Shown here in pieces: positions 14,321-48,125 of a stretch of 64,000 bases of DNA. The DNA is taken from contig JAJEKV010000010.1 in NCBI GenBank assembly GCA_021234155.1, forward strand, positions 8,688,815-8,752,814, read 5' to 3'. The notes beneath the pieces were generated by a model, which was not told the origin of the DNA, did not search any database, and saw only the letters and a list, made by a program, of their open reading frames with translations. Origin of the DNA: Isoetes taiwanensis (Eukaryota > Streptophyta > Lycopodiopsida > Isoetales > Isoetaceae). Positions within the stretch are counted from its first letter, which is position 1. The number at the start of each line of letters is the position of its first letter. The position numbers and the translations under genes were made by a program.

Positions 14321-15226
14321 TTCCCATTAGCTAGCCGTTGCGGGCCCTCCTCAACATCCCTCGTCCACGAGAACCAATGGGGGCCATCTGTGGGGGTATA
14401 TGCACGCGTCCACTGGCCGGGTCATAGAGCCGCCAATCTTTATTCCCACCGGGTGTGATGTGGAGGTCCCCAAGGGTCGGGCTGGCCTTGAAGCACTCTG
14501 GCATAAAAGGTTCGAGGATGAGTGTCAGCGGGCGAACATCTCCCCACGATGCTTGGCAAGGTCGTACCGCCTTTGTGTCCTTTCGCCCGGATGGGCGCTG
14601 ATGCGGTGGTGGCCCGCGTTTCTGCACGGATCCGTATAGCCGGGCTGCCGCTATTCTTCTGATCCGCATCAAACCATCGATTCTGTGAGGAATATTGCAC
14701 CCCATGGCGGCGACAGATACGCCTAAAGCATTCCGTCCATTTGCATCGTAATAGCGAAGTCAATTGCTACATCGCCTTTGCTCTAGTGTGAGGTCTGCAA
14801 TGCGGGAGAGCGTCCATGAGCATCTGGCGTGAGTCCTCGCCGCTCATAATCGAGTCTCAACCGAGGGACGGCGGGGGGCTGGCATAGTGGGGGATTCGCC
14901 AAACCAGCGTCCAAATAAAGTGGGGAGGTGATCTCGAAGCCTCCTCATCCCGGAAGCTATCTGTGCCCACCAGGAAGCCGGGATGAGATGCATATCTTGC
15001 GCAACTACAAGCACATAGTCCACCACACTAGACCCTCCCCACATTGTCACATCGCATGTGCACTTGGTGAATCGGGCCACCTTGTGAAAGGCCATTGCAA
15101 ATTATCAAGTCAAAATGCCACATAAGAGCAACCGTCGCCAAAGCGAAAGTGACCGAGTACGTCATCCGACCCGCGGCGTGGCGGGGGTAATCAAGGGGTA
15201 GGTGGGGACATCGTCGGCCCGAGGGG

Positions 15227-15760
15227 TCAAGTCGCATGGGCTGCTCTACTCCTGTCCGGGTGCATTGAAATCTCCAAGAAGGACGACCCTACCCAACTGG
15301 CCGATCGCTGTATGTCATCATATAGATCGACATATCGGGTCCATCCTATCCGCATGACGGTGCTCGCGATAGAAGGTGTCTTTGTCTGCGTGAGGGAAAT
15401 AACAGCGCGAGAAAAGAGGGTTGCCATCGGTATTATGCACACCAACCCGTGGTACCGGTTGTGTCCGGGTGTCTTCCTCGGGAGGGTAACCGAATGTGCC
15501 AAGGTTGTCCGGTAGTAGCAAGCCACCCCCCATGACCCCGCAGCTGTCTGTGTGTATTGAAGACCCAGAAATGTTGGTAACCCGGCAAATCGAGGTGCTT
15601 TCAGGCCCCGATGCTCCCCATGTCTCCATGAGGAAGATGAGATCCATACCGGGCCGCCACGGAAGTTCGACCGTCCCCTTTTGCCAAGGGAAGCCTCGAC
15701 AATTCCATGAGACCACCCCGAGGCACAATTCCTATTTGTCCGGCGGGGATGGTATCGCAC
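15227..15760 (-). pseudogene. LINE endonuclease domain (EEP/APE family)
   Basis: The frame 15728-15318 contains VSWNCRG near its start, the opening motif of LINE endonucleases, and LIFLMETW about 25 residues later, where the catalytic Glu lies. Later blocks (RCYFPHADKD) resemble the mid-domain. The frame changes at least twice. In life the domain would nick target DNA to prime reverse transcription. Confidence 0.7.
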
Positions 15761-16559
15761 CTGAAATGAGGGGAGGACGGAAGCGAGGTCGAGTGAGAAG
15801 TAGATGGAGCGGAGGCAAAGATGTGGTCGTGAGAGGGCGAGGCGAGGAGGGAGGAGTAGGAGCAGAGAAGGGGGGGCCGTGGGTAGTAGAAGCGTAGCGG
15901 GGCAGCGTCATTTGGGTTGGGGCTGGGGGGTCCCGCAGCAGTGAAGCATTTGTGTCGGAAAATGTGCATCCCCGCCGAACCAATCCTGCGGCACCCCGCT
16001 GGCGAATGCCTCGACCTCGACAAGGTCCACTCGCAGCGTGCCTCACATTTGCGGTGTGAGGTCCCGGTCCACGTCACCGGGGATGTCCCCTTCAACATCC
16101 GTACTGGCGAATATGGCATCACGCACTGCATCGAACCGCGGAATATGACAATGCGGTCAACGCCCGGTGGCGGAAACCCCATGCCGCTGCCGAGAAATGT
16201 GAATCGCCGGGAATGTCATCCGTCGGTGAATGTGTGTTAGGATGTGGTGGGCGACTCTCCCCTGCTCACCGGCATGCCTCGAACTACGTGATTGTGGCCT
16301 CGCTCTCACGAGTTCTGCTGAGGCCCGGGTCAAGGTGGGCGCAAGGGTAGGGTCCCTTTGGGGGGGTGGTGGTGGTGGCTGGGATGGCGGGAGGACCGGA
16401 GTGTGGCTGGGATGGCGTGGAGTGGGGCCGGAGAGCCGGGCAGCGAAGGCGGGGCGTACGCTGCGGTGAGGGCGGTGGGGGGATAGCCGAGCAGCGTTCG
16501 GCCCAATGAAGTCCGGGAGGACAGCTCTTGCGAGCCCGCTTTGCTGCTTGGCCATCTCA

Positions 16560-24633: not shown

Positions 24634-25768
24634 AGGAGCTCGTGTTCCAGCGTTGAGTTCCAAATGAGTTTCGCAATACTTCTTCCATCGCCGAGCACCA
24701 AAGATTTCTTGGACCAATTTCCATAAAGTCATGGTATCAAGTATTCTATTGTCTAGAAGTAGCAATTTGAATTGATCGTCAAAACATGACTTTGAACTAT
24801 GATTTAAGCCATTTCACCCTCTGGCTATGGAGGGCAACCCTCTGTCTTGCGCAACACCTTGTTTCTCTTCCTTTTCCTTGTTTTCCCTACATTGCCCACT
24901 TTCCTTTTCATTTTTTCTTGTTTTTTTTTTAAATGTTTCCTTTTCTTCTTTCGCTTTTTTCCTTCTTTTCACACCCTTTTTCACCTTTCGTTCGTGATGA
25001 ACTTAACAGCTTCAGGAGCTCATGTTCCCAGCGTAGAGTTCCAAATGAGTTTCTGCAATACTTCTTCCATGCCGAGCACCAAAGATTTTTTCAGACCAAT
25101 TTCCATAAAGTCATGGTATCAAGTATTCTATTGTCTAGAAGTAGCAATTTGAATTGATCGTCAAAACATGACTTTGAACTATGATTTAAGCCATTTCACC
25201 CTCTGGCTATGGAGGGCAACCCTCTGTGCGCAGCACCTTGTTTCTCTTCCTTTTCCTTGTTTTCCCTACACATTGCCCACTTTCCTTTTCATTTTTTCTT
25301 GTTTTTTTTAAATGTTTCCTTTTCTTCTTTCGCTTTTTTCCTTCTTTTCACACCCTTTTTCACCTTTCGTTCGTGATGAACTTAACAGCTTCAGGAGCTC
25401 GTGTTCCCAGCGTAGAGTTCCAAATGAGTTTCTGCAATACTTCTTCCATGCCGAGCACCAAAGATTTCTTCAGACCAATTTCCATAAAGTCATGGTATCA
25501 AGTATTCTATTGTCTAGAAGTAGCAATTTGAATTGATCGTCAAAACATGACTTTGAACTATGATTTAAGCCATTTCACCCTCTGGCTATGGAGGGCAACC
25601 CTCTGTGCGCAGCACCTTGTTTCTCTTCCTTTTCCTTGTTTTCCCTACACATTGCCCACTTTCCTTTTCATTTTTTCTTGTTTTTTTTTTTAAATATTTC
25701 CTTTTCTTCTTTCGCTTTTTTCCTTCTTTTCACACCCTTTTTCACCTTTCTTTCGTGATGAACTTTTT
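24634..25768 (+). repeat. 379-bp tandem repeat, three units
   Basis: Units start at 24634, 25014 and 25393 (aggagctcgtg / aggagctcatg) at an even 379-380-base spacing. Each holds a T-rich stretch, the phrase 'gattgatcgtcaaaac' and a small palindrome GAGGGCAACCCTC. The third unit runs into the polypyrimidine tract near 25768. Open frames inside are repeat artefacts. Confidence 0.9.
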
Positions 25769-27200: not shown

Positions 27201-30200
27201 TGAGGGTAAGTTATGTATATGTATATAGAAAGTTGAAAAGTTATGTACAACAGATACCCTTTAGAGGGTAAGTAGAACAGTAAGGTTGTTCTGGGGGGGT
27301 CAAAACACATGTACTATAGAGAGCATCTCCTTGTCTTCTCCACCTCTAGGGTACTATAAGGAAAAGCTCCTTTCTTCTCCCAGGAGCGAGTACTATAGAG
27401 AGAGGCAGCTCCATTCCAGTGTTAGATCCCCTTAGCAATTCTTAGTCCTGGATAGTTAAAGAATCTGAACCACTGCCCGTGGCCACTTCACCACCAGAAT
27501 TCTCATTATCCACCCAATGGCACTTAAAGAAGGAATAGAACCCCACCAGGGTCCCTAATCTATCAAGCCCCTTATTGTAACCAATGCATTCTTTTCCACC
27601 TTAGCAAGCCTACTAAAGCAGAATGCTAGCTTTCTGAAGCGGAGCGAAGGCACGATCCATCTTCTATTGAATGTTATGTTGAAAGGATTTTAAGTCCTTT
27701 GGACCCACACACCTAAATGACATGGTGCGGGCTCATTTCATTCATCACTCTTCAGGTAAACTTCCAAATACCAAATCTGGCACATGCACGCCATAACCGA
27801 GAGGAAAGTGGATAAGGAGTTGTAGGAGAAATGAGATGGTTTGATATTGACATTGATTTTATAAGTGATCAAAAAGGATTATAAGTCCTTTGTTAATCTG
27901 ATTACTCTAATTTGGAATAAGAAGATCTACAAGGAATTTAAGTCCTTTGCTAAGCCAGCTTTCTATAGTTCTCGAGCAATTTAGCCGACTACAGCACGAA
28001 TGATTTATGCTACGGATGTGAGAGCATCAAGTCCATCCCCCGCGGGCCCCCGAAGAGTGAGAGAAATGTTTCAAATTCTATTACAAAGTTTGAGAGCCTG
28101 GTTACTTTTTGTAAGACTCCCATAATTAACTTGTGAGACTCTCATGATTACCTTGTAAGACAATCATGATGGCCATCATATTCCTAGAGGAAATCACTAA
28201 CTTCATAATGTTACAATAACAGCTCACGCTTTTTCAATTATCCACTTTATGGTTACATCATGCGGGGCTCAGCCCCACATGTCCAATGGGACGTGCCCAA
28301 GCAGGAGCGCTCCGGAAGTCACCCCTTCATTTCCCTGGGAGCCATTCTCCTAACAGGATTGGGTTTTTAGGGTTCCGGTCCATGATGGTATCTCCATCGA
28401 TTTCAATGATGGACCTACGTATGAATGGACAAAGGGCGCTTTGGATTGGGAGCAAAGTGACATTGACCAATCTAACTCCTGTTGGACGTAGCCGCACTGT
28501 TATATGGGACAGCTACCATAGCATACGTAATGCAGGAAGGGGACCGAAAGGAACACTTCGGATCATCCTTATCACCTACTGACAAGCTTACTTGTAGGCC
28601 AAGTATCTATCCTTCTTGTAAAGCTTGATTCAAAGAACAATAATAACTAGAACTAGTGGATCATCCTAATTAAACAACTATATCTATAATCCCACTAGAT
28701 CAGAAGTCGATTGCTCAAATATTGTAAACGTTCCTTGACTTTATTTGGTGAATTGTATCATGTTTCTTTCTAGACACTTATGAATGATAAGTGTAACGGA
28801 TCTGGCCACTTGATGGGCCAATATACATGTTTATATATGTATGTAACATGCTTGGGATGCATGCATGCATGCATGCATGGAGAGCATAAAAGCAAGGGTT
28901 TTTCCTCTTTTAAAGAGGACTTTGTAAGATTTTAGGCAGAGGAGCAATGGGGAGGCAAGAGCTTCGGAAATTGCATTGACATCAAGGCAGCCGAGGAGGC
29001 TAAAGCTTGCAAAGCATTGCATCAATTTTTTTCTTACAGGTGGAGATTTTCCATTGATTAAATTTGAGGTACATAAGCTGCCATGATTAGATTTATGCAC
29101 GATTTGATAAGAAGGATTGGAATTGTTATGAGGGATGAGAATTTGACCCATGCACAGCCACGATGAGATTTGAGTAGGAAAAATTGAGTCTGAGAATTAG
29201 TTCCTCCAGCATAGGTTGGGCATGGTTAGGACATGCTGAAATCACTTTAAAGGGCCGATTTGCCTTGAAGAAACTTTTAGTCTGATGAATTAAGACCTTT
29301 TGGGAACAACCACGATGGTGCTGGGTTTGGACGTCTTCTATGCCCTTTTTTTTGTTTATATTTATTTTAGCCATTGCTTTGTTGTGTTTACATTATTGTT
29401 ATGTCAATTTGCTAATAATTAAATAAGACGGGCCATAACTCTAGCTCAAACAATAAATGCAGTAGCTAGCAAATTAGTTGCAGACGGTCTGGGTGGAATC
29501 ATTCAAAGTGGAGATACATGGCTTGAATAAGTAAATTCACTAAGGGATATTTATTGATGAAAGAATTATGATTGCAACTCCGAGGATGCGATAATACTTG
29601 TATCAATTAAAGTCATTAAAACATAAAACACAAATAACCATAGCTAGGTAATTTATTGTAAACATTGGGAATTGATGGAATGTGGGTCGGTTGTATGGAC
29701 AACCTCAGTAAGGGTATGGTTTAAGCACATGTATAGTAATATATTGTAATGAACAACACATGTTATGGTCCGTGTCATTGCACCATTGTTGTCTTTGTTT
29801 ATGTTCTTGTATCCTTTGGGATTGGGCTTTTAGGTTCGCAGGCATATGTTGCTCCAGCATGTTCATATCATATGTGCTCTACGTCATGTTCTTGAGCTTT
29901 GTGACACCGGGAATGGCTTCCTCACAGGCGTAGGTTCCTGGTGTAGATGCACATCAACTCTTGGAACCCATGGTAAGAGGTCCTCCCAGACATGGGCTGG
30001 GAAGGGTATGCGCATACGAGGTTCACCCCACTACTCCTGCTATAGGGCTTGGAATGTAAGCTGGCTGGGCATTATTCTGCTAACATGGCCTGCTTATAGG
30101 TTGGTTGAGGTTCTCCTTAGTAGTGCGTCTTGATGGTTTGATATTTTGGCTATGTTCTTTGCTCCTGATGCTCATGTGTTGTATTTCATTTGATCATGTT

Positions 30201-30800
30201 GTCATTGTCTCGCACTTTACTCGCATAGGATCTTCCGTCTATGCTTGTGCTTATTTATTGTTATCCAAGATTCTAGAGAATTTCCATGCATGCAGTAGCA
30301 GCCAAGGATCCCCATTTAGTCACGAGGATTAACCTAGTGAGTGCATATGCAGTGAAAGAGCAACACAGTGGCAGCAGTGCAGCTGAGGATTGTGGTTGAG
30401 TTCCACAGAGAAGTTTGTGAATTACTCAACTAGATATTGTGTATCTGATAGTGAATATATTTAAACATATTATTATTGACCTCTAATTGTTATGAGGGAG
30501 AAGATTCAAATTTTTACCATATTGTATTGCTTGTCATCGTGTCAATATTAGACATATAACAACTTAGATCTAGTCCTTCATAGGTTTTGACAACATCCCG
30601 ATTTGCCAGAAGGGTCAACTCGGCAGGCTCATCACAATAAGTTAGCCAACTGATCACCCATTGATGGAGAGAGATATTCCAAATCTTAGATTTGAATGCA
30701 AAGATTTTGGTTCGAGGACCACGCAATAGTCATTTAAATATTTTTTTTGGGTGATTAGCATAAACATATTATGGAATGGTTCAATTAATTATTGTCTTGT
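27200..30800. other. Non-coding, with dispersed small palindromes
   Basis: No recognised gene. Three copies of a palindrome of the type AAAGGATTATAAGTCCTTT lie at 27682-27700, 27873-27891 and 27931-27948. A (GCAT)n run lies at about 28857-28879. The open frame at 28286-28582 has no recognisable domain. Confidence 0.5.
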
Positions 30801-30803
30801 TTA

Positions 30804-30990
30804 AGAATAGAATAGAATAGAATATGATTTTATCGTCCACGGAGACCAACTGGCCTATGGGACCCAAGTACAAAGAGAGAGCAGCAGGCGTATTACTACC
30901 AGGATTAAAAAACCCCCGCCCCGAAGAGTTTTTGGGGGAAAAACCTTAGTAGCAATAAGGATGCTGACATACTGCACAGTTATATACATA
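30804..30990 (-). mobile_element. 5'-truncated LINE 3' end with (TAGAA)n tail
   Basis: The tail at 30804-30823 is followed by 'ttatcgtccacggagaccaa' and 'gggaccc', then by 'ggattaaaaaacccccgccc' and 'gggggaaaaacctta'. The inner part matches the copies at 12.3, 42.8 and 43.5 kb. It stops near 30990 without coding sequence. Confidence 0.85.
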
Positions 30991-31398
30991 ATCACAAGTA
31001 CAGCTGAGGTTAATGTCGGACAGGGGGGCATAACTGATAGTTTTGCACGTTTAAGCAAAAAAAAAAATAAAAATAAAAAATAAAATTGGCCATTCTTTTT
31101 TTTTTCTTCTTTTTCCTTTGTGTCTTGAAAAGGATTTTGAAAAAAAAAGGTCGTCCCTCTGAAGTCCAAGTAGTGAATGAAAAGGTTAGAACTTGTAACA
31201 AATGGTTTAACACATACACAAAAAAAAGGGTCAATTTTAGCTACTGTTTGAACACTGTACTCAATTCAATTACTAAAGCAATCCTCTGTGCAATAGCACC
31301 TTGTTTATTGATGAAATGGCTACAATTTAGATAATGTTTCTTTGCATAATAAAGAAAAAAATAAACATAAATATTGCCTTTACTTGGCATAAAATAGA

Positions 31399-31911
31399 CT
31401 AATATTTTGGCATAGGAGGAATCCATATGGTAGCTATCACTTCTGCAGTCAAACTCAGTTGTAAGAATGGCATGTACTCCCAGCTAGCATAGCCAGATGC
31501 AAATCTAAAAGAACCAGTGCCGCCTACAATAGCCAACTCACTCTTACTTCCAGTTCCTTTAAGATCCCTGCCCAATAAGAGGAATTGACCCTTGAGTCCA
31601 CCATGATCATATAAAATAGTTATGTAATAAGTCGAGCTTCCAGTGGCAATGTCAGTAAGGGCTACCCACCCTTGAGCCCTTCCAAGATATTGGGTGGTTT
31701 GATTATTGGCAACAGAGGTGATGACATCATCAAACACAAATATGGAGCCAAACTGTGGAATTATAACATTGTTGTTGGCTCCTGCAACAATCACATTTGT
31801 GGTGTTGGGTGCACCACCTTGGAAATAGAACTTGAGTGTGATGAACTTGGCATTACTACCCATTGCAAAGAGCAGCATTACCATGGCAAGAAGCTCGAAC
31901 TTGCACCCCAT
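31399..31911 (-). CDS. Dirigent protein (intact, single exon)
   Basis: 170 residues. I start at the ATG at 31911 (MGCKF); the longer frame upstream begins with TTG, and the second copy confirms this ATG. An N-terminal signal peptide ends near SNA|KF. The dirigent beta-barrel motifs follow: LKFYFQGG, then FGSIFVFDDVIT, YLGRAQGWVALTD, LLLGRDLKGTGSKSELAIVG, GGTGSFRFASGYA and a hydrophobic end strand. Known members act in the apoplast, steering coupling of monolignol-derived radicals into lignans or lignin-like polymers; the substrate of this one cannot be read from sequence. A TATA box sits 75 bases upstream. A broken copy with the same promoter lies head to head at 44.9 kb. Length is near the family norm; no frameshift is seen. 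Confidence 0.92.
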   Translation of the reverse strand: MGCKFELLAMVMLLFAMGSNAKFITLKFYFQGGAPNTTNVIVAGANNNVIIPQFGSIFVFDDVITSVANNQTTQYLGRAQGWVALTDIATGSSTYYITILYDHGGLKGQFLLLGRDLKGTGSKSELAIVGGTGSFRFASGYASWEYMPFLQLSLTAEVIATIWIPPMPKY

Positions 31912-31929
31912 GCTTCTAATGCACTCCAA

Positions 31930-32270
31930 TTCAATTTAATTCAATTTACTTCACTTCTTCTATAGGATGTCTAATATGCTTTTATAGTACACTAAGGTTA
32001 TAATATATTATGCATGCCACACTGGCAACACTTAGAGTCATTCCATGATGGCATATCGTGCCAAGTTGTTGCCATGTATCCCCCCCAATGCTTATACCAG
32101 TTGGTCAAAGTACAAGGTGCTTCTACTAAGTCAACGTCCTAGTAATGACATTTGGAAATTGTCTATAGTTATTACTAGCAATAGAGGCAACAAACCTTTC
32201 CACCTTTCTACCTATTATACCTTAGTAGAAATTGGATTAAAATATGCAATTATTGTTCATTAAGATATTT
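31930..32270 (-). promoter_or_regulatory. Upstream region shared (inverted) with the second dirigent copy
   Basis: Phrases such as 'gccaagttgttgccatgt', 'gcttatacca' and 'aagtacaaggtgcttctact' recur in reverse complement at 44570-44720, upstream of the copy at 44865. The duplication therefore included promoter sequence. Confidence 0.75.
31981..31986 (-). promoter_or_regulatory. TATA box of the intact dirigent gene
   Basis: On the minus strand the sequence is CTATAAAAGCAT. TATAAA starts 75 bases before the ATG. The same sequence occurs at the same distance in the second copy (44790). Confidence 0.75.
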
Positions 32271-32510
32271 AGGATTAAACTATGCAATTATCGTGTACTA
32301 AGTTAACATTGATTTAGGGACCATCCTACTTCTTACGTTATATTAAGTTTTCTAACATGTGGCCATTTATAAAATCTAATACAATCTATATGTCTATATC
32401 TGTACATCAATTGACTTAAAGCTATGGAAAGTGGGTAGAGATGTTATTTTTTCTGCCCATGATTCCCATCCGTTTCTTGTATTTTTTTTTTTATTTATTT
32501 TATTTTTTTT

Positions 32511-34625
32511 TTATATGACATGTTTTATAGATTGTTGTGAATTTTATTGGGCTATGGCATTATTACCATGGGTTCATGGTTTGGCACTTCGTATTGTTTG
32601 TCGACATATGAGTTAAACATTGCAATAATGCAATATTTGGAAAAAATACAAGTATTGGGATCGGATACAACAGATTTAGGGTTACTGTGATATCCAAATG
32701 GTGCAGCCGTGTGATGGGCGTCGTTGGAGGTGGTTGTACCTCAATCCGTCACATGCTTTAGCTGGAAATTTAGATGGCATTTCTTTATCTTGAAATTTAC
32801 AGGTACATGGTTTATGATTGCTTAAGGACACGGCTGAGCAGCACGAACCTTGCTAAGGACTAAGCCAAGGTTAAATAGATGTGATCAGATTCACAATGCA
32901 TGTGCTTGTGACGAAATTATGCTGCCTGGGGGTTATCCTGTCTTCTAGCATGGGTAGGAAGAAAGGGGATTTGAATATGGCAACCAGGAGGAAATTAGAT
33001 CCGAGACCACCGCCCCCAAAAGAAAGAAGATGTGGGAATTTCGTAGAGCTGCTAAATGTGCTCTACCAGTGATGATTAGTGATGAGCCTAAGGCTGATTT
33101 GGATAGTGCTGCTAAAGATAAGGATAGTGGCAGTTTAGCTGCAGGAAAGCTTGCACAAGATGAGAAGATTAGTGGAAATGATAGCAATAAAAGATGTGAG
33201 CCCATTCATGAAGTGGATCTTGCGCATTTGCTTTACAACACAAAGGGATTCCCTCCGAGCAAATATTCGGGTTATTTGGATTTCTTGTATGCTTTGGCTT
33301 ACTAAGTTGATTTACTTCTTGAGAAATTTTAGACAGTATTTAGAGTTATTGAATGCTTTTATGATGACAAGGGTTCCTAGATTTAAACAGGCATGTATGA
33401 GAACTAATACCTAAGGCTATGCTGGTCCTGCATGAATTTTCATTATTTGATTATGCAATCTTTAGTCTTTTGATGATTTAGTATTTTAGAAGTTACATCT
33501 GGCTACTATGCTAAACAAGTGAATATATTTCTATGGTATCTACTGTCTGTACTTTGTGTTATTATTGTTGTTTTGCTTATTGGACCAGACCTAGTGTGGT
33601 TATTTACACCTCCCTTAGGAGTGCAGTTCATGTTCATTTTTTGTTCTAGTTGATATAAGTTTACATTTCGGCTGCATTTTGGGATATGTATGGGTGCAAT
33701 ATTAGATCGGATGTTACCTCTGCCACAATAACTGACTATTTGGGATCTACCTGCTGGATTTGCTCTTGTGTTTAAACTGTACAAAATATTAGGATATGAT
33801 GTTATCTTACTAAGTTAAATACATGCATCAGTGGTAATACTTGTGGAATCTCTGAATCAGTTGATGTTTGTAGATCTCTAGTGGATGTATACTAACAATT
33901 GTGTGATCCTTAATATACTGACTGCACTTAAGTGGGAAATACTGGGTATTAATATCCTGCATAATAAAGTAGGTATAATTTGGTTGCTAAATGTTAAGGT
34001 CTGGTTGACTTAGAAATAGGAGTATGGAACCGATTTACTCCAGCTTAAAAACAGGGATATTAATGGTGCTGCCATTATTAGGTTGCTATGTTCTAACCTC
34101 TATTTTCCTATGCTATGGTACATCTTTTATAAACATGGTGAAGGGGATAACCCAAGAAACCTAATGCTTACCGGTCAGTGCTGTCATTATTACCCTTCTT
34201 AGGCTAATGTTTGGCTGGTTTACTGCAGGTAACAAGGTTTCTTGCTCCATGCTTTGATGTATCTATTTGTCTAAGCTGATGGTTCAAGCAATACGAGTTT
34301 TCAAGTAAGATTATTCCTATGCGATAACAGGAGTTATATCTGGAAATCATCGATATGTTATATGACTGTCCTACGATGTTCTTATATATGTTTATTTCTA
34401 AAAACAGTTTTCTACCGTCTACTCTTATGTAACTATATGAATCTTGAATATGATTTAATGGATGATTTTTCATAATAATGTGTATAAAGGTTAAAATTAT
34501 TTAATGTCCCTTTCTTGGCCTAGTAAAATGTTCATGTCATTTGTCTAGGACTGCTAAAGGCAGACTTAATATTTTCAAAGGGAAATTTTAAGTATGGAAT
34601 TCTGGTGTCAGATTTGGAGTTTTTT
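32511..34625 (+). repeat. Left 2.1-kb direct repeat (copy A)
   Basis: Starts at the junction after a poly-T run ('ttatatgacatgttttatag') and ends at 'gatttggagttttt'. It matches copy B with scattered substitutions and small indels, many of which fall at CTG or CAG triplets. Confidence 0.9.
32950..33271 (+). CDS. First exon of the retroelement protein, copy A
   Basis: An ATG at 32950 starts MGRKKGDLNMATRRKLD, a basic, nuclear-targeting-like N terminus. A Lys/Asp/Ser-rich stretch follows (ISDEPKADLDSAAKDKD). Relative to copy B this copy has small indels that break the frame (near 33000 and 33215-33270). It is the copy positioned upstream of the RT, so it should be the functional exon if the element were intact. 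The true start could also be further upstream, since the frame is open to about 32881. Confidence 0.45.
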
Positions 34626-34721
34626 ATGTTAAACTCAGTTTTCTAGTTATACTAGAAACCAAGATTAGGACTATTGCTACAGGAATAAAACATTGTCTAA
34701 TGCATTTGCTTATGACTCTAG

Positions 34722-36240
34722 GCTGATGTCAAAGTTGATGAAAATAACTATTGGATCAAAGAGCTCATTTTATTCAAGTATCATGAATGTGGGATTGATA
34801 GCCCAAATCTGGCTGTTCAGACCATTGTGGCGTGTATTAGGAACAAGGAAATCCATGAATACATTACATTCAAAGAGACCAACTTGGTGGACAAATCAAG
34901 ATCACCTATCACATTTCTTGGCTTCAACGGATAGTTTAAACTGCTCCACACTATAAAGAAGAATAATTTTGAGTTCAACAAATGTAAAGGAGCAATTTTG
35001 GAAGTCTACAATGATATGAACAATATTCTCTACCATAGAACTTGCCAAGAGGATGATATAGCCCGAAGCTTCATGATTGGCCTTGCTGCCCTAGAAGAAG
35101 GTAATGAAATCTATCCTTCCTTTGGTCCAACTAATGGTAATGCTGACACGCCATCCATTGAGGATGATATTTGTTTATTCTCTGATAAGGATCTGTTAGA
35201 TCCGGAATTTTTCAATGGCCAGGCAGCCAATCAAGACACATCCAACAATGAATTGCAGCATTCTGGTACTGAACATGAGGAGGTCCCTAATCTTACCTTG
35301 GGAAATTCTTCATGTTTTCCTATTATTCATGAACAATCTGTGGAAGGGCTTGCTGCTGCATATGATCATGCCATATGGAAGAGCCAAAATTTTGGCGCTC
35401 TAGCACCTATCAACGTGGAGACCTGGATTGCATTGGCTGGTATAAACAAGGAAGAGATTGCGATGGCTAAGAGTACAGCCACCAAACTTGAAAAGAGTTT
35501 TTCTTATATTAATCCAGATCTTAACTTTGATATGTCCTTCTTCGATGAAGTATGCATTAAAGATCCTGCTATTCAGGTGTGCCAAAAAGGCCATATGGCT
35601 TACCCTAATGAATCTTCCTCACTCACTGCCCCTATTTCAAATGCAAGTGCTTCAAGAATAAAAACTCTAACTGCCACTGTGGTATTATTTGGCTAGATCA
35701 GGGCATATGGTTTTTATTAAACCATTTGGATAATGTGTATGAAGATTCTACTCCAATTATGAAGATGGTGGCAATTTCAAAACTTTAAATAAGGTACTGA
35801 AGCCTGCTGTTATTGGTTACATTTCATATCTTGAAGTTCGTAAAGTCATGATAAATATGACTTTAAAGTATGCTGAAGATTCTAATGCCAATCTGAAGAA
35901 TATGTATGGTAATAGCAGGATGGCGGATATTATTGAGAAAACAATTAAACCTGTCTCTTTTTTACTGGAAAATGCTGAGCACAGTGGAAAAAACCATGGC
36001 TCCAAGAAACAGAATATGTTTAAAGCTAAATATAGTAAATCTGTACCCAAACTTACAGCTAGATTGGCTCCAAGGGTCACTGTTGACCCGGCTTTAACCA
36101 AAGGGCACAATATGCAAAGTGAAGAAGTACTTGCTGGCAGGCAATGCATGGGTACAATCCCTAAAGGTGGTAATAATATTATCACGCTTGATGAAAATAC
36201 TCCTGCAGACATTGAGTCTGTACCTGAATCCCAAGAATAA
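34722..36240 (+). CDS. N-terminal half of the retroelement protein (frameshifted)
   Basis: After an acceptor (gactctag) at 34721 the frame reads ADVKVDENNYWIKELILFKY in phase with the exon end SNIQ. It stays open to 35696 except for one TAG at 34932. Near 35630 the frame shifts; the alternative frame gives a Cys/His cluster (CKCFKNKNSNCHCG) and IIWLDQGIWFLLNHLD. A second frameshift near 35800 leads to 35848-36240 (MTLKYAEDSNANLKNMYGN ... VPESQE), which is Lys-rich. No GIY-YIG motif was found. The function is unknown; position suggests the N-terminal extension common to Penelope-like proteins. Confidence 0.45.
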
Positions 36241-36388
36241 TATACTACTTCGTAGTATAAGACATTTGTCATAAACAGCTTTTGCTGATCTTTGCAATAT
36301 TTAATGTTGCTTCTTAAATTGTTTACTTGGTTTAGTGTGTTAATTATTTCTGTTTAAATGGATGATACTAATTCATTGTATTATGTAG

Positions 36389-38240
36389 GTGCATAACAGA
36401 ATTATCACCAAAGATGCTAGTGGGAAAAGACATCTGATTAATAATGAAGATGCAAATGATAGAAAAATAGTGCATTTCACTTTTATTTCCAAAGCTTTGG
36501 ATAAGATTGATATCAGGAAAATATTCAGTCTGATATTGGAAAAGACTTTACAAGAAAAAGGCAAGGAACTGGTTAATAGCACCATTTTTGCATGGAGATA
36601 CGTTGAACAAATAAAAGAGAAAGTGTATAAACCTTTTTCTATTTTTGCTGAAGGAAAGGATGTTAAGTGCCCATGTTCAAATCCCAACCTGGCTAAATTC
36701 ATAGACCCTAGAATTGGGCATGTGAGAACCACAGACTTGGGAATTGTCCACTGCATTAAGTTGAGAAAGGCATTCGCCAAAGGTTTAAACCATATACCAG
36801 ATTGCAGCCTTAGCATACAGAGATTTAGAGAGGAATTTCTAAAGCTGTGCCAACAATTTTGGGAGGTCCACAAGTATGATACTATGGATCTCAATGATTT
36901 TGACACTAGAAACATTACTGAAATGCTATTACAGTATGCACACATGGAAATAATACAGGTGAAGGAATGTCTACCCAATAAGAGATTTTTATGGGATGAC
37001 CAGCAGGTTAAAAAGAATGTGGAATGGTTAACACAGAACCTTTTCATTTCAGGGTTGGACAAGGCCAATAATAACCCATGTTTCATATGCCAGAAACTTA
37101 TCCATGAGATGGCAAGAGCAAGGCTGGGTGGGCCTGATTTTCTGCCAACACAGTGCCCTCCTGATCAAATAATGGAGGAATGCAGACAATATATACAACA
37201 AGCCCTATGTTTGGAACAAGACTTGGTTGGTAAATTACTTTACCTTATGGCCAGTTATAAGGCTCATAAGGCTGAATATAGATGGCTAACAAATGCAAGT
37301 AATTCCATCTTTTCGGCTGTGGCTCAGTGGATTACTGCGATACTGAATAATATTATGCAGATTTGGCCTCAGTTATGCCTTAGACAAACTGCCCCATACA
37401 TGTTATTTAACAGAAATAAGATCAATGCCTCTTGGATGGTAAGTTCTGCTTATGAGGTAGTTCTCAATCTACCCTACAAAATCAGCAGTGTATTCTCAGC
37501 TGATATAACAAAGTGCTACGAGAATATACCAATTTTTGGTGATGATGGTATTATTGAAATCATGAATGATGTAATCGAATTAGCCTGGGAACACATGAGA
37601 AAGGATCAACAACTTGTGCACATGCTTATAAAAGAGAAAGCTGGTGGCTTTGAAATAAAATGGGAAAGACATGTAAAAAGAGATTTAAACAAAACATGCT
37701 GGACAATAGTGGAAAAAGATAAGTTTAAAGCTATCAATAGTTGGTTACTATCGCACTGTTTTTTACAATCAGGGAACGAAACATGGCAGCAGAGGAAAGG
37801 TATTCCTATGGGATTTTCGTGTAGTCCTGCTTGGTGTAATTTATACCTTGCGTAGCACGAACTAAGGTTTATGCTGAAACTTGCACACAAAGGCAGATTT
37901 AAAGACATTAGGAAATTTGAGTATGCTGCTAGATATATTGATGATCTTAGCATTCTAAATGCAGGTGACATTGATGAGTACTTTGATAATGAAGCAGATT
38001 GCACGATTTATAACATGCAACATCTTGGTATTAAAGATGAAACTGAATATGTGATAGATGGAAATGGTACAAATTCTTCCATATGTGTATGCACACTCGG
38101 ATTTTGAATGTGCTGCTAAAGATATATGTAACCTGATTAATACTTTTGCCAAGAATGGGTTTGGCAGGAAAGAGGTTTGCAAAACATTCCTGATTTATTT
38201 ACAGGATGAACAGTTTCCAGGTCTGCTAACTGTAGGGACA
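36389..38240 (+). CDS. Penelope-like reverse transcriptase (motifs A, B and C present)
   Basis: Preceded by an AG acceptor at 36388; the first codon is GTG, so this is an internal exon. The open frame runs 488 codons to a TAG at 37853-37855, then continues in the same frame to about 38105. RT motif A is FSADITKCYENIP (about residue 370), motif B is GIPMGFSCSPAWCNLYL (about 472-488) and motif C is ARYIDDLSIL (about 37930). A region near residue 105 (IGHVRTTDLGIV) matches a block I associate with Penelope-like proteins. Motif B with GxPMG and SP differs from LTR and L1 enzymes. After a frameshift near 38075 the end reads AKDICNLINTFAKNGFGRKE and stops near 38240. I see no endonuclease domain. 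Confidence 0.7.
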
Positions 38241-38316
38241 TGATACATGCCCTTAAAGGAATGATATAAGGGCAATAATTTTGTGCTGATATAAAATAAA
38301 AAAGCATTGTGAGGGT

Positions 38317-38341
38317 AGGGCCTTGGCTACAGCAAGGCCCT
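38317..38341. repeat. Perfect hairpin at the 3' end of the internal region
   Basis: Arms AGGGCCTTG and CAAGGCCCT with loop GCTACAG lie about 95 bases before repeat B. The position between the RT end and the repeat suggests a structural RNA signal or terminator. No hammerhead-ribozyme core (CTGATGA...GAAA) was found by eye in the element. Confidence 0.7.
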
Positions 38342-38435
38342 GCACTCCTTGCTGTATGCATTGCTGTTATCTATGTTCTATTTTGGCATAACTAGCAATT
38401 GCCCCCCGAGCAAAGGTCGGAGGTAGGTTTTTTTA

Positions 38436-40565
38436 TTATATGACATGTTTTATAGATTGTTGTGACTTTTATTGGGCTATGGCATTATTACCATGGGTTC
38501 ATGGTTTGGCACTTCGTATTGTTTGTCGACATATGAGTTAAACATTGCAATAATGCAATATTTGGAAAAAATACAAGTATTGGGATTGGATACAGCCGAT
38601 TTAGGGTTACTGTGATATCCAAATGGTGCCGTGTGATGGGCGTCGTTGGAGGTGGCTGTACCTCAATCCGTTACATGCTTTAGCTGGAAATTTAGATGGC
38701 ATTTCTTTATCTTGAAATTTACAACATGGTTTATGATTGCTTAAGGACATGGCTGAGCAGCACGAACCTTGCTAAGGACTAAGCCAATAGATGTGATCAG
38801 ATTCACAATGCATGTGCTTGTGACGAAATTATGCTGCCTGGGAGTTATCCTGTCTTCTAGCATGGGTAGGAAGAAAGGGGATTTGAATATGGCGACCAGG
38901 AGGAAATTAGATCTGGAGGCCAGTCTAGCCCCCAAAAAAAAGAAGATGTGGGAATTTCGTAGAGCTGCTAAATGTGCTCTACCAGTGATGATTAGTGATG
39001 AGCCTAAGGCTGATTTGGATAGTGCTGCTAAAGATAAGGATAGTGGCAGTTTAGCTGCAGGAAAGCTTGCACAAGATGAGAAGATTAGTGGAAATGATAG
39101 CAATAAGAGATGTGAGCCCATTCATGAAGCTGGATCTGCTGCATTTGCTTTACAACACAAAGGGATTCCCTCTGGAGCGTCAAATATTCAGGTTATTTGG
39201 ATTTCTTGTATGCTTTGGCTTACTAAGTTGATTTACTTCTTGAGAAATTTTAGACAATATTTAGAGTTATTGAATGCTTTTATGATGACAAGGGTTCCTA
39301 GATTTAAACAGGCCTGTATGAGAACTAATACCTAAGGCTATATGCCATAGCTGGTTCTGCATGAATTTTCATTATTTGATTATGCAGTCTTTAGTCTTTT
39401 GATGATTTAGTATTTTAGAAGTTACATCTGGCTACTATGCTAAACAAGTGAATATATTTCTATGGTATCTACTGTCTGTACTTTGTGTTATTATTGCTGT
39501 TTTGCTTATTGGACCAGACCTAGTGTGGTTATTTACACCTCCCTTAGGAGTGCAGATCATGTTCATTTTTTGTTCTAGTTGATATAAGTTTACATTTCGG
39601 TTGCATTTTGGGATATGTATGGGTGCAATATTAGATCGGATGTTACCTCTGCCACAATAACTGACTATTTGGGATCTACCTGCTGGATTTGCTCTTGTGT
39701 TTAAACTGTACAAAATATTAGAATATGATGTTATCTTACTAAGTTAAATACATGCATCAGTGATAGTACTTGTGGAATCTCTGAATCAATTGATGTTTGC
39801 AGATCTCTAGTGGATGTATACTAACAATTGTGTGATCCTTAATATACTGACTGCACTTAAGTGGGAAATACTGGGTATTAATATCCTGCATAATAAAGTA
39901 GGTATAATTTGGTTGCTAAATGTTAAGGTCTGGTTGACTTAGAAATAGGAGTATGGAACCGATTTACTCCAGCTTAAAAACAGGGATATTAATGGTGCTG
40001 CCATTATTAGGTTGCTATGTTCTAACCTCTATTTTGCTCTGACATGCTTTATGCTATGGTACATCTTTTATAAACATGGTGAAGGGGATAACCCAAGAAA
40101 CCTAATGCTTACCTGTCAGTGCTACCATTATTACCCTTCTTAGGCTAATTTTTGGCTGGTTTACTGCAGGTAACAAGGTTTCTTGCTCCATGCTTGATGT
40201 ATCTATTTGTCTAAGCTGATGGTTCAAGCAATACGAGTTTTCAAGTAAGATTATTCCTATGGGATAACAGGAGTTATATCTGGAAATCATCTATATGTTA
40301 TATGACTGTCATATGATGTTCTTATATATGTTTATTTCTGAAAACAGTTTTCTACCGTCTACTCTTATGTAACTATATGAATCTTGAATATGATTGAATG
40401 GATGATTTTTCATAATAATATGTATAAAGGTTAAAATTATTTAATGTCCTTTTCTTGGCCTAGTAAAATGTTCCTGTCATTTGTCTAGGACTGCTAAAGG
40501 CAGACTTAATATTTTCAAAGGGAAATATTAAGTATAGAAGTCTGGTGTCAGATTTGGGATTTTTT
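38436..40565 (+). repeat. Right 2.1-kb direct repeat (copy B)
   Basis: Colinear with copy A. It follows 'ggaggtaggtttttttatta' and ends in a T run at 40561-40571, beyond which a LINE fragment begins. Confidence 0.9.
38862..39191 (+). CDS. First exon of the retroelement protein, copy B (intact)
   Basis: From the ATG at 38862 to the CAG|GTTATT junction at 39191 there are exactly 110 codons. They begin MGRKKGDLNMATRRKLDLEA, include the Lys run APKKKKMWEF and end FALQHKGIPSGASNIQ. The open frame extends upstream (to 38769) and past the donor to 39333. This copy lacks the indels of copy A, so it records the undamaged exon. Confidence 0.5.
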
Positions 40566-40689
40566 TTTTTATTTGACGTCAAACTAGATTGAAAGTCCAC
40601 ATCAAAAGACAGATACAACGACACAGGCGGGTTTAAAATCTCAGAGGACAATCGTGATCCTGGGGGATAGTACATCCATGTTTTATCCC

Positions 40690-41165
40690 AAGATTGTTTT
40701 CAACATGGTCCTAGATACCCAATGAAAACGGTAAAGACAATTGCACAAGCATTTTCTTCATACAGAACTCAAACTGCATTCTAAGCTTTTTGGACACATT
40801 CAACTTGTCCAACCTTTTCCACAATTGGTCATGCAACACCTTATCAAATGCTTTTTTAAAGTCTACAAATGCCATGTAAACTGGTTTTTTAGCATCCTTA
40901 ATTGTGTCAAATATGGTTTTTAACACCAGTAAATGGTCTAAAGTAGCCCTTCCTACTTTAAAAGGCTTTGCACGCTTTTGATTGTGCTCCGCCCAATTTA
41001 CTTATCCCTTTCTTCTAAGATAGTGGTAAAAATCTTGGGAAATAGACTACTTACTATAACGGTTCAATAATTGTTTGCATCATGCCTTGCCTCCCCTTTA
41101 TATACGAGAACCACCTTGTTTCGGCACCAATCAAGTGGAAACCCTTGTCTCATAGCCGTTGTAAA
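40690..41165 (-). mobile_element. LINE reverse transcriptase fragment
   Basis: Motif A is read as MAFVDFKKAFDKVLHDQLW at about 40830-40885, within the frame 40926-40711. Upstream on the minus strand, VLVYKGEARHDANNY is the usual block before RT motif A, and a frameshifted GRATLDHLLVLKTIFDTI follows. Both ends are missing. The wording of the motifs differs from the L1 element at 46-48 kb. It lies directly beside retroelement copy B. Confidence 0.8.
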
Positions 41166-41169
41166 CTTT

Positions 41170-41625
41170 TTTTTTTTTTTTTCTTTTTTGAAGGTAAGAG
41201 TCTGTATTTTCTATTTGATGAAAAAATTTATATACAGTCATGCCCAAGACAGAAAAGCACTTCCCATGCTTAACTGCTCAGACTTTAATGACATTTACAA
41301 GAAGTAAATTCGATCCAGCTTCACTTGCAGCAGTAGTCGTCAAATCCTTCTTACTTGGACGCCACGCTCCAAGGATTCGCCAAGGATTCGCCAGTTCACT
41401 CATATACTTGACCCCCAACACACTTTTTGACGAAGTTCAACCACACTTTTTGACGAAGTTCAACCCAACTGTACTTGCAACACAAACTTGCAAGATTCTT
41501 AGTGTGTCGCAGCCTTAGAGTATAATACCATCACTAGTTCCATCTTCTTTGATTCAAATCAAAAGTAGGAATTCAAATCCCGGTGATGTTTCCATAGCCC
41601 ATAGATTCTCAGAAGAATCGTAACT
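41170..41625. other. Debris with small duplications
   Basis: A T run at 41168-41192, a doubled 'ccaaggattcg' near 41370 and a doubled 'acactttttgacgaagttca' near 41420-41460. No gene. Confidence 0.5.
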
Positions 41626-41628
41626 TCC

Positions 41629-41640
41629 GCTCTGATAACA
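41629..41640 (-). promoter_or_regulatory. LTR-retrotransposon primer-binding site (initiator Met tRNA type)
   Basis: On the minus strand the sequence is TGTTATCAGAGC, one mismatch from TGGTATCAGAGC, the site complementary to plant initiator Met tRNA. The upstream sequence would be the end of an LTR (higher coordinates, ending ...TGAATTGTATCA at about 41645). The element body to the left is absent. Confidence 0.55.
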
Positions 41641-41644
41641 CTTG

Positions 41645-42250
41645 ATACAATTCATTGTTTATGGGTAGCTAAACTACTGAACAACAGCATCTTATTTGAA
41701 GATCAAGATCCAAGAACATCATATATAACAGATAAATACATTGACGAGCACGTTTAACCACCCAACCGGGTCCACAGAGTTATGGCAGTGCAAATGGCAA
41801 CTGGCTTGGCAAACAATATCTGGCTACTCCGCGTAGACCATGAGCAAACAACATCTGGCTACTCCGCGTAGACCATTGGGCAAAGACAATATCTGGCTTA
41901 TTGGCCCTCCAGGCTAGTCTAGCTACTCCATGTAGCTACACATCATAAAAGCAATTGCATATCTGTGAAGTCGCTATGGCAGTAATTTGTGACCCCCTGT
42001 CACCTTTTCGGTTATTACTCCCCCATACGGATGAACTAGGATATGTGCCACCCAATTCGGAAACTAGACTCCGAGCCGGTTCCAACGAGGTAAAGGTCGC
42101 TGCAATCAAAACCTCTGTTGTTTTAGAGATATGTCCAACCGAAGTTTTGGTTCTATTTATAGATCTCTGCGACTTTAGCCTTTTTAGCATGCGGTTGCCT
42201 TTTTTCTCAAAATATCTCCTTGCCTTTAATTAGATTATATGAATTATCAT
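41645..42250 (-). mobile_element. Probable solo or truncated LTR
   Basis: Inferred from the primer site beside it. The sequence contains a 40-base tandem repeat at 41800-41935 ('atctggctactccgcgtaga'). The outer end near 42230-42250 is not defined. No homologous second LTR is in the window. Confidence 0.35.
41800..41935 (+). repeat. About 42-bp tandem repeat, three units
   Basis: 'caatatctggctactccgcg' followed by 'tagaccat' is repeated twice nearly intact, and a third, diverged unit follows. Confidence 0.8.
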
Positions 42251-42388
42251 ATGGATGTTCGAACCTCACTAGGATCTTGGCATCCTAGGACCTTTGGCCC
42301 CTGGTATCCTTGTAGGGGGTGGTGCTCCTTGAAGAGGGAGCGTCGTATGTCCTAAAGGGATCTTTGGCTTGTGCTTTCTGACGTAAAA

Positions 42389-42532
<144 letters not shown>

Positions 42533-42743
42533 GGCCTTTTTTGTGCAAAATAGTCAGCCCCTTTTGCTTGATCATTGATTCCCCTTGATATCTCTCCAAC
42601 CAATGGTTCTCGACCCCATCCTAGATATCACAACCTTGCTATAGTTCCACAACTTTGCCATAGTTCCACAACTTTGCCGTATTTTGCCATGCCCCCATAA
42701 CCCTAGCACCGTGGACCACTCCCCTGTGCTATGACTCCATATC

Positions 42744-43240
42744 AGGAATGGAATGGAATGGAATGGAATGGAATGGAATATAATGTACTTTTATCGTCCA
42801 TGAAGACCAATTGGCCTATGAGACCCAAACAAAGAGAGCAAAGAAGCGTGACATCGCCGGGATTAAAAATCCCTCATCAAGGGTTTTCGAGGGAAAAACC
42901 TTAGGAGTATAATTAGTTAATAGACTATACAATCATATAGGACAATTCAATACTGCACCAAAAGAGATAGCCGAGTCCGTGTATCTTTAACCTCCTGAAG
43001 GTATGATCCCAACAAGCCTACGTAGGTTGTGTTCAATAGCACACAACGACTGGTCAGGTATAACTAAGTGGACATATTGTGCCCGGATATGATCGAATGC
43101 TGGGCAGGTCTGAAGGGCATGGCATTCATCCTCAATGGCGCCCTATTGGCAACACTCACAGATCATGTCCTCACATGCCTCCCGAGTCCATCTGGCCTAT
43201 CTCAATGGGGGGGAGGGAAGGAAGGAGGGAGGGAGGGATT
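42744..43240 (-). mobile_element. 5'-truncated LINE 3' end, (GGAAT)n tail
   Basis: The tail at 42744-42779 consists of GGAAT units, followed by 'cttttatcgtccatgaagac' and 'gagaccc'. About 400 bases of 3' region follow, matching the copy at 43.4-43.9 kb and the inner region of the 12.2-16.6-kb element. Confidence 0.85.
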
Positions 43241-43413
43241 GCATGGCCAGAGGGTAGTTTGACCTAAGAAACCCTAATGTGGCAAGTAATCGAGAGAGAC
43301 CTTGGATTCAAATGCGCAGTGAAAGGGTAGTTTGATTGAAACTAAAGAAACCATAGAGATAGAGATGATGGACACAAATGAGCTGTTAGAGGGTAGTTTG
43401 ACTGAAGAAACCC

Positions 43414-43930
43414 TATAGAATAGAATAGAATAGAATAGAATAGAATAGAATAGAATAGAATAGAACAGAATAGAACACAATAGAACACAATAGAATAGAA
43501 TAGAATGTATTTTTATCGTCCACGGAGCCAATTGGCCTATGGGATCCAAACAAAGAGAGCAGCAAGCCGATTATTATCAGGATTAAAAAGCCCTTGCCCC
43601 GAAGATTTTTGAGGGAAAAACCTTAGCAGTAATAATTATGTTGGTAGACTACACAATCGTATAGGACAATTCAATACTGCACCAGAGGACACAACCGAGT
43701 CCGTGTATCTATAACCTCATGAAGGTATGATCCCAACAAGCCCACGGAGGCTGTGTTCAATAGCACATAGCGGTTGGTCAGGCGTAACTAACTAGACATA
43801 CTGTGCCCGGATATGATCGAATGCTGGGCAGGTTTGAAGGGCATGGCATTCGTCCACAATGGCGCCCTATTGGCAACACTAACGAATCATGTCCTCACGC
43901 GTCTCTCGAGTCCAACGGCCTGTCGCAATG
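43414..43930 (-). mobile_element. 5'-truncated LINE 3' end, long (TAGAA)n tail
   Basis: The tail (43414-43506) is the longest in the window, with some 'cagaa' and 'cacaa' units. The core 'ttatcgtccacggagccaat' and about 400 bases of 3' region follow. It lies in the same orientation as the copy just left of it. Confidence 0.88.
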
Positions 43931-44079
43931 CGGAGGTGATGTACACCTACGCGAATGGAAGCTATCAGTCTGTGCTTCTTCATGGGCAAATGGGTGCACA
44001 AGTAGTATAGTGGGCCTCGTGTGAGCCTGGGATTGACCTACTGCTGATAATGTGCCATCTTGACATGCGTCAGAGCATG

Positions 44080-45819: not shown

Positions 45820-48125
45820 CAGAGATAGGGAACCCATTTGGTCTGAAATAAATAATTGGTTAGTTGCCTAGAACATTGACAACTGGATTATTACTGGAGA
45901 CTTCAATAATACTCCTTCTTGGGATCTGAAATTGGGAAGTAAAATAAATATGACTAGAATTGAAAAATCAGAAAATGGTCTGATCCACATCCTCTCTTCT
46001 ACTGGTACCTAAACTTGGTCCAATAAGCAAAAGGACAAAGCAAGAGTTTCTTGCACTCTTGATAGATTTTATGTATCCAATCCTTCTACAGCCTTCTAGG
46101 ATAACAGCTATGTCACTACTGATGAGGGAACCTCAATCTCTGATCATCAACCTCAGTTTCTACATACCTCTCATATTACCAAAATTCAAAGGGAGGGAAG
46201 CACTTCTTACAAATTTAATACTTGCCTTCTCGACAATGAGAAGTTCTGTTCACAATTTAGAGCCTTCTATGAGGATCTCTCTGGAAATATGAATGAGACT
46301 GTTGCTAATGACAGAAAATTGCATTCCATGAAGCATTTCTATGCCAAAATCAAGACAATAAAGGGCTAGATCAAAAATTGGTCTAAAACTATGCATGATC
46401 AATGCAGCAGAGAGAAAAATCAGCTCATGATGTATATGAAAGATATCAGATCTTTGCTTCAAGATGATCCTACAAATTCCAACCTTCAATTGGGTGAGAA
46501 GATTTTGGAGAGAAAAATAAAGAACATTGAAGAGATGGAGGCTAAGGGCTCTGCTATTAGATGTAAGATTAAATACACCAATGATATGGACTCTGGCAGC
46601 AAAAAGTTCTTTTTTAGAGTTGCTAAAAGCAGGGTGTTGAGGAATTCTATAACTGAAGTTCAAGATGATAATAGCAACAACTACTCCTCTCATTCTGAGA
46701 TTGCCAATATGGACCTCTTTCAATGCAGGTCTATCCCTTCCAACAACATTACAGAGGCAAATGACTTTATGAGTATAGTGAATAATATCTTACCTTCTGC
46801 CTCTGAAATTATGGAAGATTCTATTATTGCTCTTCCTTCACAAGAAGAGATCCTTGCTACTCTGACCTCTTTCAGTAAAGGAAAATCTCCTGGCCCTGAT
46901 GGTCTTCCAGCTGAATTCTATATAAAATTTTGGGACATTCTCAAAAATGATCTTATCTCTCTGGTTCATGCCTTTTGGAATAATGAACATCTTCATTCTT
47001 CTATCTCCAGTGGTTTTATCTCCTTGGTTCCCAAAATTGATCACCCTTCTAAATTCCAAGAATGAAGACCTATCTCTCTCACAAACACTACCTATAAGCT
47101 ATGTACCAAAATTATTGCCTTGAGAATTAATAGCTTTCTGCAAAGGAATATCAGTCAAAATCAGTCAGCCTTTCTTCCTAACAGATATATTCTTGATAAC
47201 TATATGGCAGCCATGGAAGGTTTGCACTGGAATAAGATCTCCAATCAAAATTGCATTCTGCTCAAGCTGGAGTTCAAACGTGCCTTTGACTCAGTCAGAT
47301 GGGATTTCCTGGATTTTGCTATGTCTAAACTTGGCTTTCCTCCTAAACTGATTAATCTTATCTTTGGTCTAAATTCTAGATCTAACTCGGCTGTTCTCAT
47401 AAATGGTGTTCCCTCTGGCTTTTTCTCTCTTTCTTGTGGTGTTAGACAAGGATGTCCTCTTGCCCCTTATCTCTTTCTTGTGGCAGCTGATTTACTTACT
47501 AAGGTCATTATTCATTATCAGAACGCTGCTCAAATCAAGGGGTTAAAACTCCCTAATACTGATGAGTATCTCACTATTCTTCAATATGCAGATGACATTT
47601 TTTCCTTTCTTGATGCTGATATGGTTAATATTGAATCTTTTCTCAAAATCATAAACCAGTTCTCAGCTGCCTCAGGCATCCATCTAAACATCAACAAAAG
47701 TTTGATCATTGGAGACATTCCTCATCAACAATTAGCTGGAATCAATGTTCTCCCCCCGGCCATGCTACTAAATTGCTGAGTATGCCCCTTTCTTTGAATC
47801 AGAGTATTAAAGGCCTTTGGGATCCTATTCTTTTGAGAATTAAGAAAAAGTTGAACAACTACAGGAATTATCTCACTCTTGCTGGTAGAAACATTATTGT
47901 TAATTCTGTCATTGCAAGCTCTCATGCTTACTTTTCCACGGCCTTAGTTGCTCCTAAAAGTGTTTATTTAGAGCTAGAGAAAACTATTAGAAATTTCATA
48001 TGGAAAGCAAGTCACATTGTCAATTGGAACTCCATCTGTAAACCTAAGAACTCAGTTGGTCTTGGTTATAAGAACCTTTTTCTTCAAGCTCAATCTCTTG
48101 CAGTCATCACTCTTAAAACATAAAC
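45820..48125 (+). mobile_element. 5'-truncated L1-type LINE (endonuclease end and RT)
   Basis: A single reading frame from about 45822 to 47779 holds the end of the endonuclease (NWIITGDFNN, LDRFYV, ISDHQP) and then a full RT domain. The RT blocks are KGKSPGPDGLPAEFY, then RPISLTNTTYKL, LLKLEFKRAFDSVRW (motif A), GVRQGCPLAPYLFLVAADLL (motif B) and LQYADDIFSFL (motif C, YADD intact). The frame has five stop codons (45869, 46010, 46097, 46367, 47063) but no frameshift for almost 2 kb; the frame shifts only near 47760. The piece 47773-48123 continues the C-terminal region (GRNIIVNSVIASSHAYF). No poly-A tail or target duplication is defined. Confidence 0.9.

Follow-up and report, generated by a model that had tools for sequence, protein, structure and literature searches.

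A Penelope-like retroelement copy in the quillwort Isoetes taiwanensis, probably from a dispersed and often tandem family, with a proposed internal reverse transcription primed on A-tracts

The copy in the window

The DNA examined here, hereafter the window, is a stretch of 64,000 nucleotides from the quillwort Isoetes taiwanensis (contig JAJEKV010000010.1, positions 8,688,815 to 8,752,814). It carries two direct repeats, A and B, which enclose an open reading frame (ORF1) and a reverse transcriptase (RT) gene, with a T-tract at each outer end (Table 1). From the sequence alone, an original prediction had proposed that 2.1-kb direct repeats flank a Penelope-like RT, and the repeats are borne out, with 2,070 identical positions among 2,117 aligned (97.8%) and 17 small gaps. 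We read the locus as a copy of a dispersed, often tandem Penelope-like element (PLE), with a unit of about 5.9 kb and a proposed internal, A-tract-primed reverse transcription, and estimate the probability of this reading at roughly 0.78. The window holds one dead copy of a numerous, probably recently active family.

The RT frame of the window copy (36389-37855, 488 amino acids) is terminated by a TAG at 37853-37855. Two motifs named in the original prediction, ADITKCYENIP and GIPMGFSCSPAWCNLYL, lie within it, and a third, RYIDDL, is found in the same frame just past the stop. Compared with two other copies (L009 and L010), the window copy lacks 176-196 bases at 38050-38070, and the thumb-like end of the RT sits in a different frame; with these three defects, the copy is dead. 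ORF1 is broken by a TAG at 34932-34934 and a frameshift near 35620-35740. Neither ORF1, nor tandem arrays, nor T-tract ends, nor the death of this copy were part of the original prediction.

Other copies in the genome and their outer ends

A search for further copies, also proposed beforehand, was run with the RT as query against the host assembly (1,658,258,908 bases, 1,110 contigs). It gave 88 scored matches, the window included, out of 4,125 first-look candidates, with identities of 52-100%, and the layout of the window recurs elsewhere. Around good RT matches, 20 stretches of 10 kb were taken, a choice biased towards intact copies: an RT frame of more than 650 amino acids was present in 15 of them, and, by the filter applied, an open ORF1 of 515-540 amino acids in 10. 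The RT is flanked by a direct repeat longer than 1 kb in 14 stretches, and by one of 400-851 bp in three more (L012, L023, L024); within their 10 kb, L009 and L021 show none, and L016 just 171 bp. Three stretches (L010, L018 and L027) have a repeat of 3.1-3.6 kb that extends to, or almost to, the edge of the 10 kb, as tandem arrays would, and pairs of RTs some 6.1-6.4 kb apart occur on contigs C907, C1060 and C1051. Units of about 5.9 kb are often tandem, and the family has the pseudo-long terminal repeats (pLTRs) with tandem or partly tandem units that characterise PLEs. Since other genomic copies carry the same layout between different flanks, the repeats belong to the element, as had been suggested.

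All outer ends that could be placed lie at T-runs, of 11-29 nt at the left (11/11) and 10-26 nt at the right (14/14), and the equivalent inner sites have 5-11 T at the left (20 loci) and 5-8 T at the right (16 loci). The placement of these outer ends was manual, guided by repeat boundaries and alignments, and excluded L024, which joins the end of another copy; L021 and L027 show no outer end. Once oriented, the 20 stretches contain 33 T-runs of at least 10 nt against 2 A-runs of at least 10, not all at ends. On its right, repeat B ends at a U-tract, and in repeat A a stem-loop follows this same U-tract. Its stem has 8 pairs, and across 13 sequences all 104 cells are paired. Ahead of the inner unit start lies a GC-rich, hairpin-like element (81.4% of cells paired in 17 aligned copies, with weak covariation).

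In the window, the 14-base core of the left 16-base T-tract occurs only twice, at the two outer tracts. A 16-base target duplication there is weakened by the other copies, in which T-runs are found without notable shared letters beyond. Past the T-run, L020, L022, L025 and L026 have right flanks whose first 40 bases are similar on visual inspection, perhaps indicating a preferred kind of target. The idea that these flanks are poly-A tails of one repeat family was dropped, as alignments join just L020, L022 and L026, at 61-71% identity.

Reverse transcriptase, ORF1 and the putative exons

At E ≤ 1e-3, 102 proteins match the 488-residue RT (best 8e-70); as this search admitted lengths of 268-854 amino acids, longer relatives bearing an endonuclease (EN) would escape it. 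The claim of a Penelope-like RT holds: hhalign aligns the family with canonical PLEs at E 3.3e-14, and in a structure search with the predicted RT the first 16 matches are all telomerase, as telomerase also comes first for a PLE control. Profile and predicted structure together support the view that the RT belongs with PLEs and telomerase. Two features set it apart from canonical PLEs. A CxC followed by GLN or GMN is present in 69 of 72 family rows, and the corresponding pattern in none of the 24 canonical PLE rows that form the reference set (one of which, P0103, looks rearranged). The spacing between motifs A and B is 90-107 residues in the 68 family rows measured (out of 72) and 59-62 in the 14 PLE rows measured (out of 24), and the predicted model places extra strands between these two motifs. 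Sequence searches of PDB gave nothing meaningful for the RT, PLE or ORF1 profiles, and among viral contigs none of 49 pattern matches was related. RT dN/dS has a median of 0.087 (4 of 105 pairs usable).

ORF1 lies upstream of the RT in 19 of 21 loci, the exceptions being L009 (191 of 520 residues) and L021 (none). Across 10 open copies, 158 of 554 columns are identical, the conservation extends along the length of the protein, and a C-rich segment, CPYFxCxC...CxC, is present. The single usable pair out of 45 gives a dN/dS of 0.113. Pfam returned nothing convincing for the 10 open ORF1 proteins (best E 0.079), and a protein search with the broken ORF1 sequence of the window found no relative. 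The C-terminus in L020, L013, L022 and others is a conserved tail like GGNxVISLxExTPxxIExVE, which resembles a short interaction motif.

Splice signals conserved in phase across copies support the introns that had been predicted. An exon 1 that starts with M(G/A/T)RKKGDL and ends at CAG/GT (exon/intron) in phase 0 is present in 16 of the 20 stretches; none of this type was found in the 10 kb of L009, L021, L024 and L025. Its dN/dS is 0.455 (31 of 120 pairs usable). Exon 2 (ORF1) frames open directly after a TAG in 10 of 10 cases, and exon 3 (RT) frames in 13 of 15, the RT frame opening a few codons farther upstream than the TAG in L015 and L028. The start of the RT thus appears to depend on an upstream exon, and we infer that exon 1 may be spliced to exon 3.

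Proposed mechanism, competing explanations and neighbouring features

A unit comprises, in order, a 5' region with exon 1, the ORF1 exon, the telomerase-like RT exon and the 3' hairpin. In the cycle that we propose, a multi-unit transcript would be spliced so that exon 1 enters ORF1 or, past ORF1, the RT. The RT complex would open an A/T homopolymer; the 3' end of the A-strand, paired with the internal U-tract of the second unit, would prime reverse transcription, which would run until it reached the T7ATT at the 5' start of the first unit. The product, a full unit followed by the initial 2.1 kb of the unit after it, would resemble a long terminal repeat (LTR) element. It is the T-run ends, the end of the repeat at the U-tract and the stem-loop that suggest this A-tract-primed, internal reverse transcription of a multi-unit RNA.

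Several observations weigh against the reading of the locus as such an element. The original prediction had proposed to define both ends and the target duplication from other loci; the ends were obtained as T-runs, but no duplication past the T-run was seen in the 8 loci with both ends (the longest shared stretch is 6 letters), nor was any empty site found, and the joins are irregular in L012, L024 and L028. Covariation in the stem-loop is limited to one pair, altered on both sides in 3 sequences, perhaps through a single event. The introns are putative, being read from conserved splice signals. TM-scores to telomerase are just 0.27-0.46 across 16 rows, and Z to telomerase is higher for the canonical PLE control (19.2) than for the quillwort family (14.5), so there is no sign that the family is nearer to telomerase than PLEs are. 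Plain hmmsearch with the canonical PLE profile misses the L020 RT at E 10, which the family profile finds at 1e-161. The family profile matched neither a single host TERT nor a single host long interspersed nuclear element (LINE), and the PLE profile did not match TERT; these negatives carry no weight. Finally, in a broad RT tree of 51 rows, the LINE branch (8.2 changes per site) and the TERT branch (5.3) are so long that their positions are not trustworthy: host copies group together except for a host LINE on a tip among them, and TERT joins the PLEs. In this tree, moss-like proteins group with Ceratodon (support 98). Because of these long branches and of a sampling free of LTR and DIRS sequences, the placement of the RT rests on the profile and structure comparisons.

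Among known systems, Chlamys and Naiad, PLEs with an N-terminal EN reportedly described by Craig et al. in 2021, are marked by a CxC motif and by an A-to-B insertion. These also have pLTRs, tandems, simple-repeat targets and green-lineage hosts, and are not known to carry a hammerhead ribozyme. The quillwort family resembles them in the CxC before the RT, the insertion at the IFD position, the pLTRs and tandems, the simple-repeat targets and the green-lineage host; it differs by a separate ORF1 of about 520 amino acids, T-tract ends and a putatively spliced layout, and by the absence of GIY-YIG from the window and the open ORF1 copies. With canonical EN-bearing PLEs it shares the RT architecture, the DK hairpin and a YKxHK segment, and differs in having no C-terminal GIY-YIG, an A-to-B spacing of about 100 rather than 60, a CxC, and no detectable hammerhead (no Rfam match in 30000-44000 up to E 5). 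It also shares pLTRs, tandem units and, as proposed here, internal initiation with them; in a lizard PLE, reverse transcription reportedly starts internally, AT-rich DNA is nicked and units are in tandem (PMC11167929).

Athena and Coprina are names given to EN(-) PLEs. Such elements of Selaginella, conifers, rotifers and others are similar in that no EN domain is found and in having plant hosts, a lycophyte included; reviews report EN(-) PLEs in Selaginella and conifers (PMC9033089) and telomere-associated PLEs in Selaginella (PMC12477314). Unlike the telomere-associated ones, the fetched quillwort copies lie at T-tracts inside long scaffolds, with the nearest contig end 339 kb or more away in 20 of 20 cases (contig ends not being proven telomeres), and their ORF1 has no known relative. 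PLEs are termed the closest known eukaryotic relatives of telomerase in PMC12632851. The family is like telomerase in its predicted fold over the RNA-binding-like region, RT and thumb, but is multicopy and flanked by its own repeats, and the host has a separate TERT gene. This gene, at L031:920-3078, has two exons with an RNA-binding domain, a T motif and RT motifs. Our literature search, whose coverage left out most subscription papers, yielded no mention of an element of this kind from Isoetes, and no word beginning with "Penelope" occurs in the Isoetes genome papers PMC8566536 and PMC10541799.

How, then, would the target be cut? In agreement with the original prediction, Pfam scans of 32500-36400 and 37800-40580 in their three forward frames detected neither GIY-YIG nor integrase nor protease, and no N-terminal GIY-YIG of the Chlamys/Naiad type was found in forward window frames or in the 10 open ORF1 proteins. 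It is quite possible, if somewhat short of even odds, that we are dealing with a Chlamys-like PLE that borrows the GIY-YIG of a different element in trans, or has lost its own, the RT then using host nicks in T-tracts. The features shared with N-terminal EN PLEs (CxC, A-B insertion, pLTRs, no hammerhead, simple-repeat target) speak for it, as do at least 121 GIY-YIG (PF01541) matches elsewhere in the genome, with 150 of 263 candidates scored. However, none of these 121 places falls inside the window or the 20 stretches (coordinates compared by eye), the three best loci have no match to the RT, PLE or ORF1 profiles, both RT and ORF1 profiles matching the control L020, and host nicks alone would not account for an orientation that is constant relative to T-runs. 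In L032, L033 and L034, GIY-YIG frames of 115-156 amino acids recur, with a helicase-like AHKSQG frame upstream in L032 and L034; these may represent a Helitron-like family that carries a nuclease.

The lack of any GIY-YIG match makes the ORF1 protein a candidate for binding or cutting the target. That it is itself the nicking or targeting enzyme in place of GIY-YIG is a tentative idea, on the unlikely side: its conserved columns, its C-rich segment and the dN/dS of its single usable pair would fit, but it has no Pfam or PDB relative and no recognised catalytic motif, and a role in RNA binding or as a particle protein is just as conceivable. We hold as slightly more doubtful the full scenario of a PLE lineage in which ORF1 replaced GIY-YIG to open A/T homopolymers, the RT primes on the A-strand at an internal U-tract, and RT and ORF1 are alternatively spliced from a shared exon 1. 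If the element were a genuine LTR retrotransposon, with LTRs of 2 kb, an aberrant RT and tRNA-primed copying inside particles, this would explain the direct repeats of similar length around the coding part in many copies and their constant outer end; such an identity appears very improbable to us, no integrase, protease or gag domain being found by Pfam in window forward frames or open ORF1. The alternative that the repeats stem from an unrelated segmental duplication enclosing an RT gene of the host, which the window alone could not exclude, is contradicted by the identical layout at many genomic places with different flanks, and we give it practically no credit.

To our knowledge, the integration route of PLEs devoid of endonuclease is an open question. 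For such a PLE, this family offers a likely defined start of reverse transcription, a repeated T-tract setting and a new partner protein; being numerous and having many open frames, it makes priming and cutting testable.

Table 1. Features of the element copy in the window
Feature	Position	Strand	Evidence
Left flanking T-tract ATTTTTTTTTTTATTT (candidate target tract or duplication)	32481-32496	+	Identical 16-mer at 40559-40574
Repeat A (pLTR), 5' part of unit	32503-34635	+	97.8% identity with repeat B
Exon 1 copy A (MGRKKGDLNMATRRK...), frameshifted; donor CGG/GT	32950-33270	+	Translation; start and CAG/GT donor conserved in other copies
U-tract (34620-34625), then conserved stem-loop (34640-34658)	34620-34658	+	8 bp stem, 13 sequences
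Putative exon 2 / ORF1, broken	34722-36240	+	Open frames of 515-540 amino acids in 10/20 other stretches
Putative exon 3 / RT, broken	36389-38243	+	Open frames >650 amino acids in 15/20 other stretches
CxC motif (CPC), upstream of RT core	36668-36676	+	Motif counts in family and PLE rows
Motif A to motif B, long insertion at telomerase IFD position	37502-37813	+	A-to-B spacing in family rows
Conserved GC-rich hairpin-like 3' end of unit, directly before repeat B	38402-38427	+	Alignment of 17 copies
Repeat B (pLTR), start of second unit cut off at U-tract	38428-40585	+	End point shared with other copies
Exon 1 copy B, open up to CAG/GT donor	38862-39191	+	Translation; donor matches other copies
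Right flanking T-tract	40559-40574	+	16-mer identical to 32481-32496

Elsewhere in the window, a GC-rich stretch at 12000-16000 (54-57%) lies between neighbours of 37% and 45% G+C; an rRNA origin was a guess, and no Rfam match was found there. A tandem array at 24634-25765 has 3 copies of a 379-bp unit with 96% matches. Directly left of the element is a frame for a dirigent-like protein (31399-31935, minus strand, Pfam E 5.6e-22), and directly right of it an RT fragment in reverse orientation (40711-41001, minus strand, RVT_1 E 6.3e-7). Farther right, at 46370-47779 on the plus strand, lies a broken LINE-type RT (RVT_1 E 1.6e-29 in the second frame), for which the label L1 is our own.
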